Assembly: GCF_005145005.1 (NCBI RefSeq)
Contig: NZ_CP039712.1
Location: 1,656,501 to 1,720,500 of the forward strand
Source: Vagococcus zengguangii
Lineage (GTDB): Bacteria > Bacillota > Bacilli > Lactobacillales > Vagococcaceae
Direction of reading: 5' to 3'
DNA length: 64,000 nucleotides
Part shown: in pieces, positions 30,567 to 39,609 of the stretch
How positions within the stretch are numbered: position 1 is the stretch's first letter
How the letters are laid out: the number at the start of each line of letters is the position of its first letter
Notes under the pieces: generated by a model
What the model saw: only the letters and a program-made list of their open reading frames with translations
Database searches by the model: none
What the model was told of the DNA's origin: nothing
Made by a program: the position numbers and the translations under genes

Positions 30567-33176
30567 TTAATCCTCCATCATTTCATAAAATTCATCTAAA
30601 TCTTGGTATATCATTTCCATTACAGGATGATAATAAAGACTTGTTTGCTCTATTATCGATATTATTTTTTCTTTAGACCAAACAATTCCATAGTAATCTT
30701 CAAGGTAATCAATTAAATCAAAAATATCAATTGATTTGAACTTAGAAACTATTTCTTCTAAAAAAGTATAACTGTAAAATTTATCCTTGGTTTTCCTGAA
30801 AATTGTTGTTGTTCCCATGTTTTGATACCTTAATCCTTCTACTCCTTTCAAAATTGATTCATAAAAAATTGCATCAAAACCCAGATTATTTAGTTTACTG
30901 TTCTCCACAATATGTTCAATCATCAAGTATGAAAAATATTTATCATTCATTTGTTCAGTAATGTCTGAAACTATTTCTAATATCTGTTTTTTAGTTATTC
31001 CTGTATGAGAAGTTATTTTATCCATGCTTATATATTTGTAACAATCATATTCGAAAATATCTAAATTACGTACTTTTTCGGATATTAGATTTCTAAATGA
31101 ACCCGTTGATAACAATCTAACATCATCGATTTCAAACAAATCTTTACTGAAGTAATTTTCTTCAAAATAATAATCTGCTCTATTATATTCATTAGATAAA
31201 ATGAATTCTGAAAATGGTTTATATCCTAACTCATTGAAAATATAATCAGGGAATTTAGCTTTACCAAATCTTTTCTCATACCTTAAATAAATATCTTTTT
31301 TAAAATAGAATTGTTCTGTAAGAATTCCTTTTAAATTCTTCAAAACCTCCTTCTCTATGATTGGAGTATCCGCATTATAAATATCCTGCTGTTCATATTC
31401 AACTAATAATTTTAAATAATTAGCTTTTACGGTTTGAATACTAACGCCATACTTTCGTGAGTATTCTAATGCAAAATCTTCTTTTGATACTGGGCTCATT
31501 TCTATTAGTAAATCTAGCAACTGTTCTTCTCGACTTGCTGACCCTACTTCTAATAAAGGCATTCTTTTCAATATAACTTCTTCAGATAAAATGCTTTCAT
31601 ATTTTTTCAAAAGATTATGTAACTCGTATTCATCATTAATATCAATTTCTTGCATTAGGACTGGATAATCATCTAATAGTTTTTTTGCAGATATTTCTGA
31701 ATTATAATAATTACTAAATGAAATACCTTTAATAGCTTCAATCACTTTATCTTCATCTATAGGATAGTATCTTAATTTTTTACCGTATTTCCAAAGTAAA
31801 CTAGACGCTCTAGAAATAATTCCTTCCATTGCCCTTTCATTACCAAAATCAATATCTAAATGATACTGCTTCGTAAAATCATTTACTAAATTGTAAAAAT
31901 CATTAAAGGAAATTTCTTCCTTTGCAAACAACTCAATACAATAATTAATTATACCAACTCTATTTTTCTTGATTTTCTTGTTCTCAATTATTAAATAGCC
32001 TTCATTCAAAAATTCTAACAACGATTCTTTTTCTTTTCTTGAAAGCAGTCCACTGTCTAATAATTCTTCTGCAGTATGTTTCTTAGCACGTTTATCGATA
32101 TTTGAAAACATCTTTAAAAAATTGTATTCATAGTTTCCTATATCAAAAACCTTACAAAAAACTTCAGGTGATAATTCATATTTTTCAAAAAATTCGGAAT
32201 ATTTCCATTCAAAAATTTCTTTATATGGAATAATTTTTTTTAAATTTCTCTCTTTTTGACGTATCCTTTCTCGAGTAACTTGATAATCTTCCCCTATTTC
32301 CTCCAATGTTTTTCCTTTTAACCTCTTATCTAGAATATCTGCTTTGTACCCCAATACATCAATATATTCTCGAATATAAGGATTTTGGTATTTAACCCCC
32401 TGAGAAGTGAATATCACAAAACCACTATTAACTAAATCATTAATTAATGGCATTAAATTATCTTTCTCAATTAAATTCAACTTGTCAATTCCTTTTGATA
32501 ATTGAAAAAAAGAAACCTCTCGATGCTGTTTTTTTAAATATCTAGATAGTATTTTTAAAGAAATATCTGGGATTTTATCTTGAAGCACTTTCTCTATTTC
32601 AAGAGAATCCATAATTAACTCAGAATACATGTCAACGTCAACATCTGTAAAATCAAGTAAATCTAGTTCTTCTTTTATATATCTAGACAGATTCACATAT
32701 TCTTCTTCTAAAAGATAATTTCTTATTGGATTTAAGAAATTATCTTTTAGTTTGCTTACTACTTCTTCTTTTTTTATTGGAGAAGAACTTGTATAATTTA
32801 CTTTTTTAATTAAACTTTTTCTTTTTAATCCATTAAAACTATTTATCAGCTTATTATTCATTTTATTATTTTTTTCAAGTTCATCCAATTTTATTGATAG
32901 TATGTTGTCTTCATTTATATTATTTTTACTAAAAAAAACTTCTACATTAGTAGTATAATAACATTTTCCTTTGTCATTTTTAAAATCATTAAATAAGTCA
33001 GATTTAATTTGACATTGTTGGATTTTTAGAATAGCTTCTATTTTTTTCTTCCCCAATCCTTTTATATTCATAAGATCATCCAAAGTCAAATCCATTAATT
33101 TTTCATTAGTATCTATCCCAAATTTATAAACTGCTTTGAGAGCATTTTCTGCTTGCGGAATGTTAAAAAAATCCAT
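30567..33176 (-). CDS. Large helix-hairpin-helix and sigma-4-like protein of the defence cassette
   Basis: The protein of about 869 residues starts with a helix-hairpin-helix region like the RNA polymerase alpha C-terminal domain (about 8-60, with MNIKGLGKKKIEAIL). A sigma-70 region-4-type helix-turn-helix follows at about 286-316 (GKTLEEIGEDYQVTRERIR). Several hundred residues of helical sequence with further possible winged-helix repeats make up the rest (VSKEDFALEYSRKYGVSIQT). No catalytic motif is visible. ATG 33176 follows AAAGAAAGGGG; the frame is open a little further. It could be the DNA-sensing or scaffold part of the cassette. It follows the restriction endonuclease gene by about 85 bases. 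Confidence 0.75.
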   Translation of the reverse strand: MDFFNIPQAENALKAVYKFGIDTNEKLMDLTLDDLMNIKGLGKKKIEAILKIQQCQIKSDLFNDFKNDKGKCYYTTNVEVFFSKNNINEDNILSIKLDELEKNNKMNNKLINSFNGLKRKSLIKKVNYTSSSPIKKEEVVSKLKDNFLNPIRNYLLEEEYVNLSRYIKEELDLLDFTDVDVDMYSELIMDSLEIEKVLQDKIPDISLKILSRYLKKQHREVSFFQLSKGIDKLNLIEKDNLMPLINDLVNSGFVIFTSQGVKYQNPYIREYIDVLGYKADILDKRLKGKTLEEIGEDYQVTRERIRQKERNLKKIIPYKEIFEWKYSEFFEKYELSPEVFCKVFDIGNYEYNFLKMFSNIDKRAKKHTAEELLDSGLLSRKEKESLLEFLNEGYLIIENKKIKKNRVGIINYCIELFAKEEISFNDFYNLVNDFTKQYHLDIDFGNERAMEGIISRASSLLWKYGKKLRYYPIDEDKVIEAIKGISFSNYYNSEISAKKLLDDYPVLMQEIDINDEYELHNLLKKYESILSEEVILKRMPLLEVGSASREEQLLDLLIEMSPVSKEDFALEYSRKYGVSIQTVKANYLKLLVEYEQQDIYNADTPIIEKEVLKNLKGILTEQFYFKKDIYLRYEKRFGKAKFPDYIFNELGYKPFSEFILSNEYNRADYYFEENYFSKDLFEIDDVRLLSTGSFRNLISEKVRNLDIFEYDCYKYISMDKITSHTGITKKQILEIVSDITEQMNDKYFSYLMIEHIVENSKLNNLGFDAIFYESILKGVEGLRYQNMGTTTIFRKTKDKFYSYTFLEEIVSKFKSIDIFDLIDYLEDYYGIVWSKEKIISIIEQTSLYYHPVMEMIYQDLDEFYEMMED

Positions 33177-33261
33177 GAAGAATCCCCTTTCTTTTTTTAT
33201 AAGTATAACATAGCCCATATTTTCCTTACCAACTAATATAATTTTGTATCGAAATTATACT

Positions 33262-34716
33262 TTAACTGTTAATAATTCTTTCAAGATACTTATTATTTAA
33301 CCAAAAACATTGTTTCACCATTCTATCTCCATTTGGTAATTCATCTGAATCCCTATGAAGAGTACCATTACCAAAAACTTGTCCATTTATTTCATATACA
33401 GATTTGCTAGCATGTGGACGTAAATGGAAAATTTTAGTATCTTTTGCTTTTGGTAAATTATTTAGAACTCTATTCCCTTTTGGTATAAGCTCTACCCCTT
33501 CTTTGACTACTTTTTGGTTAGCTAACCATTCTTCTTTTCCTATATCTTCTAAGTCGGTCATAGGCATATTCCAAAACATTGCTTTATCTAATTTGTATTC
33601 TGTACCGTCATGTCGATACACAACGAATAAGAATCTTTTCTCACTAAAGTATTGATATATTTCAGACTCTTCCCACTCTTCTTTAGCAAACTCTTTAAAT
33701 TTAATTGCAGGAAACGACATACTCTCTCTGATTTTTCCATTGGCTTCCACTCTAATAGTTTTGACAATCGTATCTGATTTGATAAATTCTTCTACATTAT
33801 TAGATTTCACACCTAAAATAGAGAAAGATAACCTACTAAATAAATTTAAACTATTACTACTTTCTAACTGAAATTCACTTCTAAGTTGAGATTCTCCCCA
33901 ACCTTGATACTTACTAAATTTACCGATAACCATTTTTTCAAAAGATTCTTTATCTAAATCATGATTCGTCAACGGTTCATAGGTGTCCACATCTTCAAAA
34001 ATATACTTATTTAAAATATAAGTCATATATCCTTGCTTTAATGAAAAAGCACGTCTTTTTGCTGGAATTTCTGCATTATAGTATTGTGGCTTCAAACTTG
34101 AACTAGCAGTCGCCCCTTTGGTACAAGCTCCCAAATACATCGTATCTGACTCTGATAACTCATGAGCTTTACCTTCCATGATTTTATCAGTGATTATTTT
34201 ATAATCAGATTTAATTATTTCTAAATCGTTTTTACACTCTTCCCCTAAGATAGAAAATAATTTGGAATAATTAATTTTAAAGTTTAATCTTTCGATGCCT
34301 TTCTCTCTTAAATATAAAACCAATAGCACTAATTTTAGCTTATCTAAGACATGAGAATTATTAAAATCTGCTTCAACAGGCTCATTATTAGGTATCATGC
34401 CGATAACCAAACGTTCCCCCGCCTTAAACTTATTATTTTTTAACGCTTCATAAGGGGTTACTTTTAACTCTACCCCTGCTTTTGGAAAGTCAGGTTCAGG
34501 ATTACTATTAGGCTCATAATAGAAAAAATATTTTTCAATTAAATTACCTAATCCCCCTTTTGAACGAGGATTGTTATAGTATTTCTTTAATTCTAATAAT
34601 TCTTCTTGATTAACTATTTCGTCTTCTAACACATCAGAAAAACTTTTGCCGATTAATTTTTTAGAATAGTTTTCGATTGATAGTGGATTACTTTCATCAT
34701 AAGGTAATTTTTTCAA
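33262..34716 (-). CDS. Type II restriction endonuclease, Sau3AI family (GATC)
   Basis: The 484-residue protein has the MutH/Sau3AI catalytic motif D76-x6-E83-L-K85 (PDFPKAGVELKVTP). It also has a series of segments I recognise from Sau3AI: EGKAHELSE, CTKGA, AFSLKQGYMT, RPHASKS and the C-terminal KQCFWLNN. Sau3AI-type enzymes have a catalytic N-terminal domain and a related non-catalytic C-terminal domain. They cut GATC without needing methylated sites. The start is TTG after AAGGGTG. It is divergent from its methyltransferase, and the promoters overlap (34767-34820). Confidence 0.93.
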   Translation of the reverse strand: MKKLPYDESNPLSIENYSKKLIGKSFSDVLEDEIVNQEELLELKKYYNNPRSKGGLGNLIEKYFFYYEPNSNPEPDFPKAGVELKVTPYEALKNNKFKAGERLVIGMIPNNEPVEADFNNSHVLDKLKLVLLVLYLREKGIERLNFKINYSKLFSILGEECKNDLEIIKSDYKIITDKIMEGKAHELSESDTMYLGACTKGATASSSLKPQYYNAEIPAKRRAFSLKQGYMTYILNKYIFEDVDTYEPLTNHDLDKESFEKMVIGKFSKYQGWGESQLRSEFQLESSNSLNLFSRLSFSILGVKSNNVEEFIKSDTIVKTIRVEANGKIRESMSFPAIKFKEFAKEEWEESEIYQYFSEKRFLFVVYRHDGTEYKLDKAMFWNMPMTDLEDIGKEEWLANQKVVKEGVELIPKGNRVLNNLPKAKDTKIFHLRPHASKSVYEINGQVFGNGTLHRDSDELPNGDRMVKQCFWLNNKYLERIINS

Positions 34717-34766
34717 ACTAACACACCCTTCTTTTAAATGATTTCTTGATTAATTCTTGTATATTA

Positions 34767-34820
34767 TTATATCATTTCTATTACTTTGATCTTGATCTTT
34801 TTTATGATTTAGTGTATAAT
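34767..34820. promoter_or_regulatory. Overlapping divergent R/M promoters with two GATC sites
   Basis: For the methyltransferase, TTGATC (-35, 34792-34797), a 17-base spacer and TATAAT (-10, 34815-34820) form a near-consensus promoter. For the endonuclease, TATAAT lies on the minus strand at 34767-34772, with its -35 zone at about 34790-34795. Two GATC sites (34788-34791 and 34794-34797) fall exactly in the shared -35 region. These are the recognition sites of the system itself, so their methylation could control transcription. The sites are seen; the control is inferred. Confidence 0.7.
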
Positions 34821-34850
34821 ACTATTAGAAATCGAAAGGGTGTTCGCTTA

Positions 34851-36140
34851 ATGACAAAAGAATTTAAAATTTTAGAGCTATTCGCAGGTGTAGGTGGTTT
34901 TCGTATCGGGTTAGAAAATTCAAATCCAGAATTATACCAAACTAAATGGGCGAACCAATGGGAGCCTTCAAGAAAATCACAAGATGCTTTTGAGGTATAT
35001 AATTATCGCTTTCCTAATAGCCAAAATATAAATAAAAATATTGAAGAAATAACTGATGAAGAATTTAAACAAATGGATGCCGATATCATTGTTGGTGGTT
35101 TTCCATGTCAAGATTATTCAGTCGCTCGCAGTAAAAAACATGAAATGGGTATTGAAGGTAAAAAAGGCGTTCTTTTTTGGCAAATTATTCGTGCCATTAG
35201 TCAAATTAAACCTAAATACTTAATACTAGAAAACGTTGACCGTTTATTAAAATCACCTTCAAAACAACGTGGTCGTGACTTTGCGGTTATGTTAGCTGCT
35301 TTTAACCAACTAGACTATTCAGTAGAATGGCGAGTTATCAATGCGGCTGATTACGGTCGTAGCCAACGTAGACGTCGCGTATTTTTCTTTGTTTATCGAA
35401 ACGATACTAACTTTGCAAAACAAATGGATGAAAAATATGAAACTGATTTAATGGATACTTTGTTTGATGAACATGCTTATGATGACTATATTTTCCAAGA
35501 AGGCTTATTTGCTAGACAATTTCCAATCAAACAACTTCCAGTTAAAAACAGACAAGCTTCTTACGAACTATCAGAAGATATTGTAGAAGTTTCTGATTCC
35601 TTTACTGGTCAAGTATGGAATACAGGTATCATGCGTCATGGTCGCTATTTTACTATTGATACTGAACCTACTGGTGATGAAAAACCAATCACACTAGGAA
35701 AAATTATTCAGTCTGAAAACGAAGTAGATGAAAAACATTATTTAACAGACCCTCAAAAAATTGAAAAATTTGAATACTTACGAGGACCTAAAAAAATCGA
35801 ACGTACTTCTGCTGAAGGATTCACCTATACATTCTCAGAAGGTGGCATGTCGCCTTATGATGATTTAGAATTACCTGGACGCACGATGTTAACCTCTGAA
35901 GGCTCTGTCAATCGGTCAACTCACTTATTAAAAATTAATGGACGTTATCGTCTTCTAACACCAATTGAAGCTGAAAGACTGCAAGATTTTCCTGATAATT
36001 GGACTAAATACAAAAAAACTCCTACCAATGAAATAGTAGAAGTTTCTGATCGTATGAGAATGTTCTTTATGGGAAATGCATTAGTTACTGAGATTGTAAA
36101 AAGAATTGGTGATGAATTGAATATAATTGAAAATAGCTAA
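34851..36140 (+). CDS. DNA (cytosine-5) methyltransferase, Sau3AI type (GATC)
   Basis: It protects GATC sites from the neighbouring endonuclease by cytosine-5 methylation. The 429-residue enzyme shows motif I LELFAGVGGFRIG, motif IV GGFPCQDYS (catalytic C86), motif VI ENVDRL, motif VIII QRRRRVF, a variable recognition region, and motif X FMGNALV. The frame is open to 34746, but ATG 34851 after AAAGGG is the start. A 3'-terminal second copy of this gene lies at 47930-48445. The pairing with a Sau3AI-type nuclease makes the specificity assignment strong. Confidence 0.94.
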   Translation: MTKEFKILELFAGVGGFRIGLENSNPELYQTKWANQWEPSRKSQDAFEVYNYRFPNSQNINKNIEEITDEEFKQMDADIIVGGFPCQDYSVARSKKHEMGIEGKKGVLFWQIIRAISQIKPKYLILENVDRLLKSPSKQRGRDFAVMLAAFNQLDYSVEWRVINAADYGRSQRRRRVFFFVYRNDTNFAKQMDEKYETDLMDTLFDEHAYDDYIFQEGLFARQFPIKQLPVKNRQASYELSEDIVEVSDSFTGQVWNTGIMRHGRYFTIDTEPTGDEKPITLGKIIQSENEVDEKHYLTDPQKIEKFEYLRGPKKIERTSAEGFTYTFSEGGMSPYDDLELPGRTMLTSEGSVNRSTHLLKINGRYRLLTPIEAERLQDFPDNWTKYKKTPTNEIVEVSDRMRMFFMGNALVTEIVKRIGDELNIIENS

Positions 36141-37110: not shown

Positions 37111-37698
37111 CTATATTTTATTAACCCCCATTCTCTCCCGATATCTCCTAAACGTCCTTCTATTTATCCCTGTCTTCTCTTCCACTTCTTTATCTGTACA
37201 ACCACTCAAATACAACTCAAACCCCAGCTGCAATCGCGGATCATCATCCTTAAATTTACGTTGACCACCTTTATACTTTCCTTTTGCCTTTGCAATTTCA
37301 ATTCCTTCACGTTGTCGTTCCTTAATTTTTTGTCGCTCGGATTCCGCCTGATACTTATAAATTTCAATCATCAAATTATTAATCAATCGTCTTAAATTAT
37401 CATCTTCTATTCCTGATAGAGTCGGTAAATTTAAAACTTCAAGCGTTGCGCCTTTTTGCTGAATTTGATTCATGATATTAGTTAAATCCTCATTATTTCT
37501 TCCTAATCGGTCCAATTCCGTTACAACCACTATATCACCTTCACGAATGTAGTCTAACATCGCTTTTAATTGCGGTCGTTCGATGGATTGTCCACTTAAT
37601 TTATCTGAAAAGAGCTTAGAAACGTCCTCTAACGCACTGATTTGTCTATCTAACTGCTGATCTTTACTACTAACTCTCGCATATCCAATTTTCGCCAT
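37111..37698 (-). CDS. Serine recombinase (resolvase/invertase, plasmid type)
   Basis: The 195-residue protein has the resolvase catalytic N-terminus IGYARVSSKDQQLDRQI (Ser at residue 10 or 11). It also has the arginine-rich region TELDRLGRN and a C-terminal helix-turn-helix (SGCTDKEVEEKTGINRRTFRRY). Such proteins resolve plasmid dimers or transposon cointegrates and are common on enterococcal and lactococcal plasmids. The site AGGAGG lies before the ATG. It suggests that part of this island was once on a plasmid. No typical res site was identified. Confidence 0.9.
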   Translation of the reverse strand: MAKIGYARVSSKDQQLDRQISALEDVSKLFSDKLSGQSIERPQLKAMLDYIREGDIVVVTELDRLGRNNEDLTNIMNQIQQKGATLEVLNLPTLSGIEDDNLRRLINNLMIEIYKYQAESERQKIKERQREGIEIAKAKGKYKGGQRKFKDDDPRLQLGFELYLSGCTDKEVEEKTGINRRTFRRYRERMGVNKI

Positions 37699-37778
37699 AA
37701 TATTCCTCCTAATATAAAAATTACAATGCCCAACTTACTTGTCCTTTTAATAATTCAATTATATCAATGTATGCCAAA

Positions 37779-39580
37779 AAGAGGCTGTGACATAAGTCTC
37801 TAAAAAATCCCTGATAAATTTGGCAATGAATCCAAATTTATCAGGGATTTTGGTATAATAAAATAAAAAAAGAAGCACGGTTGCACCCATGCTTCAAAGA
37901 ATCCTAGAAAGGACCCCAAAAATGTATAATAATTATAACATGAATCAGTTAAGTTTGGATATCACAACTTCATATATTCCAGAAAAAAATAATACCGCTT
38001 GGTTTATTAACGAGTTGGTTGAAGCACTACAAATCAATGAACCCTATTTATTCGGAAGACCACGTCAATATGATTTAGCTGCTATGTTGAAACTGGTCTT
38101 ATTTGCGTACACTCGAAGTGTTTTTAGTAGTCGTAAAATTGCTCAATTGGCTGAAGAGAGCCTACCGGCTCGCTGGTTAACACAAGAAATGATGCCTTCT
38201 TATCGAACTATTGCGCGCTTTAGAATATCTAATGAATTAGAAGGTCTTATTAATCAAGGATTGGATAATCTAACCGCTTATTTACGTCAACAAAATATGA
38301 TTGATGATGCCATTTTTATTGATGGGACTAAAATTTTAGCAGATGCCAATAAATTTAGTTTTGTTTGGAAAAAAATACTATTCGTTTCGATGCGATGAAT
38401 CGAGAAGCAACTGTCTCTTTAATGAATGAATTAAAAGAGGCTTATTCGTCGTCTCATATACCAGAGGGATCTAATCTGTCTTTAGATATGGTCGATGAAG
38501 TTCTGACTCGTTTAGAATTAAGATTAGAAGAATTAGAAAAACAAATCGAAGCAGAACCAAAACTGTCACCTAACCCTGCAAAACAAGAACGTCGTTCTTT
38601 AAAATCAACTAAAAGAAAATTAGCTGCACGTCGAGCTAAAATGGTAGAACATCAAAAACAATTTAAGACATTTGGAAAACGAAATAGCTATTCAAAAACT
38701 GATCACGATGCCACTTTCATGAGAGTAAAAGAAGACTACATGAAAAATGGTCAGCTTAAACCTGCCTATAATTTGCAAATTGCTACGAGTAAGCAATTTA
38801 TCGTAGGGTATGATGTTTACCAAAATCCAACAGATACTAAAACGCTAATTCCTTTCTTAGAAAAAATGAATCTTTCAGAAAAAGAGGGCATGCATATAGT
38901 GGCAGATGCAGGTTATGGTTCAGAAAGTAACTATCAATATTTAGAAGATAAATTATCTCAACATACATCATTAATCCCGTACGGGACAATGTTAAAAGAA
39001 AATAGTAAAAAATGGCAGTCAGATGATAGAAAAGTAATGAATTGGATTTACGAAGAAAAAGAGGATTATTATATTGACCCGAAAGGAGTCCGTTTTAATT
39101 TTAATACGTATAGAAAACGCACAGACAAAGACGGTTTTACGCGTGATTTCAAGGAATATATAGCAGAAAAATATGATGAAAATCGTGAAGAAATACCTGA
39201 TGCGTTAACAGCTAAGGGCTACACAAGAAAAATAATGATTAATCCTTCATGGGAATATTATAAAGCGAAGCAACGAGATTTGCTTTCAACCAAAGAAACT
39301 GGAAAAATATACGCTAAACGTAAGATAGATGTTGAACCAGTTTTCGGACGGATGAAGGCTTCTTTAGGTTTCACTCGTTTCTCTGTGAGAGGACTTGGAA
39401 AAGTTCTCAAGGAAACCGGAATTGTTTCCTTGGCACTAAATATGATGAAATTAGCGTCTTTGGAGACGCAAAAAGACGTAGAAAATAGAAAAAATCCGAA
39501 ACAAACGAAAAATAACACTTTTCGTCCATTTCGGATTTTTTATTTTAGACTAATAACACTAACTTTTGTCACAGCTTCTT
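37779..39580 (+). mobile_element. IS1182-family insertion sequence
   Basis: The 1.8-kb element is bounded by imperfect inverted repeats: left AAGAGGCTGTGACATAAGT and, read inward from the right, AAGAAGCTGTGACAAAAGT. Directly inside the left end is a strong stem (about 37804-37853, TCCCTGATAAATTTGG and its complement), which probably shields the transposase from outside transcription. The transposase gene is broken in one place (see next entry). Confidence 0.85.
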
Positions 39581-39609
39581 ACATAATTTTTTATTCTAAT
39601 TTAATTTGA
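37889..39609 (+). pseudogene. IS1182-family transposase, interrupted by a one-base shift
   Basis: Two overlapping frames (37889-38398 and 38365-39609) together encode a DDE transposase. The first holds the N-terminal region (RPRQYDLAAMLKLVLFAY) up to FIDGTKILADANKF. The second holds the rest, including VADAGYGSESN and KIDVEPVFGRMKASLGF. The break is at a run of seven A (38369-38375), and eight would restore WKKNTIRFD. The simplest reading is a one-base deletion; ribosomal slippage on the A-run is possible but not typical of this family. The frame reads through the right inverted repeat. Confidence 0.85.

Follow-up and report, generated by a model that had tools for sequence, protein, structure and literature searches.

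How a restriction system enters a new host and then safely keeps its lethal enzyme is a long-standing question. The locus described here, a restriction endonuclease gene (R) and a DNA methyltransferase gene (M) of Vagococcus zengguangii, poses it through two GATC sites that lie in the -35 region of the predicted M promoter. What do these sites control, and are they the only control sites of the locus? We analysed the locus in a 64,000-nucleotide stretch of DNA (the window) together with its relatives in other genomes. With a probability of roughly 0.7, the M gene is under two cis-acting sites: a GATC whose methylation would weaken M and thereby free R, and a LexA box through which DNA damage, by removing LexA, would raise M.

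The Sau3AI-type locus

As shown in Table 1, both parts of a Sau3AI-type restriction-modification locus are present as a divergent, adjacent pair. R matched the NCBIfam equivalog NF040973 with 535 bits (cut-off 300) over residues 13-483, which is its whole length. A Pfam match to MutH showed its N-terminal domain to be MutH-like, and Sau3AI itself (PDB 4pxg) was matched with an E value of 7e-66. The alignment with 4pxg gives D76, E83 and K85 (PDF...GVELK) as the putative catalytic residues. The Sau3AI family also includes Sth368I and LlaKR2I. In M, motif I is found already near residues 6-8 and PF00145 is the sole domain match; the domain search detected no N-terminal helix-turn-helix (HTH) or other DNA-binding extension of the Ecl18kI and SsoII type. 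No small HTH ORF of at least 60 aa, as for a C-protein type controller, lies beside the R/M pair.

Of all 256 tetramers, none is as strongly depleted in the 64-kb window as GATC, with 100 occurrences against 215 expected (ratio 0.46), which fits restriction at GATC. Together with membership of the Sau3AI family, this depletion suggests GATC as the probable target of the enzyme. The second most depleted tetramer in window 1-64000 was GGCC (36 seen, 58.9 expected). Dam-type host methylation of the promoter GATC was rejected, as this genome yielded no gene of the dam family.

A scan of genome contigs with R as query gave a single distant match, R was absent from three congeneric genomes, and a search for phage copies of the locus found none. 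Just past the R gene, 69 bp (window 33200-33268) are 98.6% identical to the Enterococcus casseliflavus plasmid NZ_CP141641.1, a sign of recent exchange. On the minus strand, window 30567-33218 encodes an 883-aa protein in which a helix-turn-helix like that of sigma-70 region 4 was recognised, along with weak HHH/alpha-CTD-like matches; its neighbour is a 404-aa protein without family, and the 883-aa protein is possibly in the same island. Window 37111-39609, which holds a gene for a resolvase together with an IS1182-type transposase divided between two frames, may mark a mobile island boundary.

Table 1. Features of the locus and of related loci. Positions are those of the window.
Feature	Position	Strand	Basis or loci
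R, Sau3AI-family type II restriction endonuclease, 484 aa, TTG start	33262..34716	(-)	NCBIfam/Pfam/PDB matches
R promoter (predicted): extended -10 TGaTATAAT (34774-34766), -35 zone CAAGAT (34794-34789)	34759..34794	(-)	sequence
GATC, upstream one of doublet GATCTTGATC	34788..34791	.	sequence
GATC, second of doublet, inside M -35 hexamer	34794..34797	.	sequence
M promoter (predicted): TTGATC (34792-34797) - 17 - TATAAT (34815-34820)	34792..34820	(+)	sequence and conservation
Probable LexA (SOS) operator CGAAAGGGTGTTCG, overlapping the M ribosome-binding site	34833..34846	(+)	9/10 to CGAACN4GTTCG
M, Sau3AI-type C5-cytosine DNA methyltransferase, 429 aa, ATG at 34851	34851..36140	(+)	TIGR00675, PF00145
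Doublet GATCTTGATC in relatives			L004, L014, L019, L020, L030, L035, L038, L129, L134
LexA-like box before unrelated m5C M (about 30% identity to Sau3AI M)			L204, L205, L208, L210, L213, L215, L217
LexA-like box before dam-type methyltransferase			L142, L150, L157

The divergent promoters of R and M

Among the sequences upstream of M, TTGATC-17-TATAAT most resembles a promoter, as had been proposed in the first-pass annotation of this DNA, and the M transcript is expected to start near 34827. The two GATC sites described there in the -35 region are present as well, with a gap of two bases (TT) instead of the three given. The pair is notable in a window depleted of GATC, where only one more pair of GATC sites within 10 bp occurs.

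The same annotation placed the -35 zone of R at this position. Placed by a 17-base spacer, that zone does span both GATC sites, but CAAGAT is a poor -35 match, so R probably relies on its extended -10, TGATATAAT, with a transcript start expected near 34759. The -10 elements of R and M lie about 43 bp apart and two polymerases should therefore exclude each other. The likeness to CfrBI seen earlier holds in this respect, the R and M promoters being divergent and overlapping here too.

Conservation of GATC in the M promoter

Relatives were collected by Sau3AI-family searches of whole genomes (order, class and phylum) and of plasmid records, with start codons taken from alignment or from a simple rule. 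Deduplication at 0.85 similarity left 58 M genes whose upstream regions differ. A GATC lies within 100 bp upstream of M in 50 of the 58, and in 45 of them it stands 16-18 bases before a TATAAT-like hexamer. The exact hexamer TTGATC occurs in 41 of 58 relatives and the spacing is exactly 17 in 40. The same register was found upstream of 0/30 dam-type and 1/30 other dcm-type methyltransferase genes (1/60 in total), and its frequency in a Markov null was 5%. The difference between 45/58 and 1/60 gives a Fisher value of 1e-19 with relatedness ignored. A tree of M proteins with 50 tips shows only 5 changes of the GATC state, so the site is ancient and has been retained. Throughout the Bacilli, and in other classes of the phylum too, both the hexamer and the 17-base spacing persist, which rules out chance, and the -35 hexamer stays TTGATC although the consensus is TTGACA. 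The conservation of GATC within this hexamer argues strongly for control of M by its own methylation, and it is for M that the earlier proposal of control through a methylated promoter site stands.

The earlier proposal went further and let one pair of sites switch both genes. Most relatives have a single GATC, so a pair is not needed; the doublet GATCTTGATC occurs in ten loci including this one. The element is found in 24/29 divergent loci, in 4/6 loci with R upstream on the same strand, in 8/12 with M upstream of R and in 4/4 convergent ones. Since it is thus kept in 16/22 loci with R convergent or on the same strand, and so is present whatever the position of R, it is primarily an M-promoter element and not a shared R/M switch; a shared R/M site as the cause of GATC conservation is ruled out. 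Divergent loci usually have an R promoter with an extended -10 overlapping the same DNA (in divergent doublet loci the R extended -10 lies at 25-27 bp from GATC in 7/8), and a polymerase at one promoter should therefore exclude another at the other.

In four loci without a promoter GATC (L010, L131, L128 and the near-copy L140), a small HTH-type gene stands just before M, as though control had passed to a different regulator. In L136 and L138, the same kind of M lies beside an endonuclease of the BglII/BstYI family, and its promoter has TTGATC too.

A probable LexA box before M

The earlier account of the control sites was incomplete, because it overlooked a probable LexA box between the M promoter and the M start codon. 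The box fits the Firmicutes consensus CGAACN4GTTCG (PMC4551915, PMC1592510), and its predicted centre lies near +13 of the expected M transcript. In phage GIL01, promoter P1 is repressed through a LexA box with its centre at +17 (PMC4551915), so that the position before M is workable. The genome encodes a LexA (219 bits, G000:C1:901963-902559). It contains no perfect LexA box; among its boxes with one mismatch are the ones upstream of recA, uvrB, lexA and two Y-family polymerase genes. The M box shares its C-to-A substitution with the uvrB box, CGAAAGTATGTTCG. A matrix trained on lexA upstream boxes and on the SOS boxes of this genome, with the 99% null as threshold, exceeded that threshold in 36/58 M upstream regions versus 1/54 upstream regions of other ORFs in the window. 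The M box scored 13.4, below the genome's own SOS boxes (15.3-19.5). Two marks of a LexA regulon member are found here, namely conservation of the box in relatives and a host LexA with the same type of box at SOS genes.

The CGAA..TTCG element might instead serve as a conserved ribosome-binding site or fold into a small RNA hairpin, so that the -35 GATC would be a real self-control acting alone and LexA would play no part. The Shine-Dalgarno sequence (GAAAGG) does lie inside the element in most loci, the box centre AAAGGGTG is constrained by the ribosome-binding site, and the arms could pair as a stem of 3-4 bp. Because the box holds the ribosome-binding site in most loci, exceptions were sought. 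Four loci, L012 (GGAACATACGTTCC), L024, L025 and L123, keep a LexA-like box and have the ribosome-binding site elsewhere, the first three of which speak directly against this reading. Perfect boxes, CGAACGATCGTTCG, lie far upstream of M in L117, L118 and L122. The outer pair is left unpaired in L020, L036 and L046 (C..T, G..G and C..C) whereas GAA..TTC is nearly fixed, and the substitution shared with the uvrB box also counts against a mere translational element. We consider self-methylation without LexA rather unlikely. Two further candidates for the element were rejected: a hairpin whose loop would hold the ribosome-binding site, as the outer pairs are not conserved, and a leader peptide (ATG-TTC-GCT-TAA) before M, whose frame is not kept in L004, L006 and L030.

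The perfect boxes of L117, L118 and L122 have GATC at their centre, and a TATAAT-like hexamer pointing towards M comes within a few bases after each of them. In L117 the box (L117:3472-3485) lies between M and a divergent gene, and likewise in L118 and L122. Judged by eye from the translations, the divergent gene is Vsr-like in L118 and L122 and of HNH type in L117. A point against our model is that 5mC within a LexA operator left lexA expression unchanged in E. coli (PMC9210283).

Four genomes lacking LexA (G160, G247, G276 and G751) have kept the GATC and have no box. The box is present in 0/4 of the LexA-less versus 30/42 of the LexA-bearing genomes (Fisher 0.011), a comparison that becomes weak once relatedness is counted, as there are only these four LexA-less genomes and two independent tree pairs.

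A model for the control of M and R

The recurrence of GATC and LexA box in dozens of relatives suggests an antidote that is lowered by its own product and raised by damage. In a new cell, GATC would be unmethylated and M strongly transcribed. M would then methylate TTGATC, placing methyl groups on the C at -30 and, in the template strand, on the C that pairs with G-33. Sigma region 4.2 contacts the -33 pair. We infer that sigma region 4 would bind the methylated -35 poorly and that M would fall. With the M promoter weakened, the divergent R promoter, which would depend less on its -35, could be freed from competition and R would rise. Methylation would thus lower M directly and raise R indirectly, the effect on R probably being exerted through promoter competition, as in CfrBI.

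In a healthy cell, LexA on the box at the M transcript start and ribosome-binding site would keep M down. If protection lapsed and R cut the chromosome, the RecA-driven SOS response would remove LexA and M would rise as an antidote. Killing by restriction systems is known to induce SOS (PMC3874152). A methylated -35 would then report complete protection, and bound LexA would report intact DNA.

M might also repress as a protein, by sitting on the -35 GATC and sterically blocking RNA polymerase, in which case a catalytically dead M would be equally repressive. The anatomy of the site would be identical, and the Ecl18kI and SsoII methyltransferases do repress as proteins (PMC12707154). Those enzymes act via an N-terminal HTH extension, which this M is without. 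A methyltransferase would be expected to leave sites that it has methylated, so stable occupancy by M would be unlikely, and we regard repression by bound M as improbable. That GATC and box were carried along by descent or chance with no function is least credible of all: the loci are related, yet their upstream DNA has diverged beyond 0.85 similarity while hexamer and spacing were kept, and GATC is otherwise avoided in the window.

LexA-like boxes before other methyltransferases

LexA-like boxes were also detected before methyltransferase genes unrelated to the Sau3AI-type M, in 7/19 other m5C genes and 3/30 dam-type genes (Table 1). The box of L213, CGAACGGAGGTTCT, contains the ribosome-binding site. 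These boxes suggest that the habit of LexA control is wider than the Sau3AI family. There is perhaps an even chance that SOS/LexA control of the methyltransferases of restriction-modification systems is general and little recognised in Bacilli, so that cuts by self-restriction would trigger the antidote. In the Sau3AI family such control would act alongside self-methylation of the -35; L117, L118 and L122 would have the box and the methylation site in one sequence, CGAACGATCGTTCG.

Comparison with known systems

In the literature searched, we found no published account of regulation in the Sau3AI family, no report of LexA control of any restriction system and none of promoter methylation combined with LexA. 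The BsuMI methyltransferase genes ydiO-ydiP of B. subtilis are reportedly included in the SOS regulon list of Au et al. from 2005. A 2025 review of the regulation of restriction-modification systems describes four modes of control, namely promoter methylation, HTH-fused methyltransferases, antisense RNA and C proteins; it judges promoter methylation to be logical yet apparently seldom used, and LexA does not figure in it (PMC12707154). Promoter methylation is apparently the rule for the whole widespread Sau3AI-type family, and the LexA box on the antidote gene, if true, would close a second loop, by which damage from the toxin would increase the antidote of the same system.

Like other members of the family, the present system combines an R that is a full-length Sau3AI equivalog with an m5C methyltransferase. 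Its M box resembles those of the Firmicutes LexA (DinR) regulon in its fit to the consensus and is placed comparably to the box of GIL01 P1. In LlaDII and AhdI, promoter methylation acts on the methyltransferase gene only (PMC12707154). Such an effect on M only is the best-supported part of our model for the non-divergent loci; LlaDII and AhdI differ in their recognition sites, and no LexA element is mentioned for them.

In CfrBI, methylation of a cognate site in the promoter overlap blocks the M promoter and frees R (PMC12707154). Like CfrBI, the present locus appears to have divergent R and M genes with overlapping, mutually exclusive promoters and a cognate site in the overlap. The two systems differ in their enzymes and site; here the locus has a predicted LexA box in addition, and the GATC lies in the M -35 hexamer throughout the family and is kept with a non-divergent R. 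Control by promoter methylation is thus already known from CfrBI, LlaDII and AhdI, and the predicted family-wide case is new.
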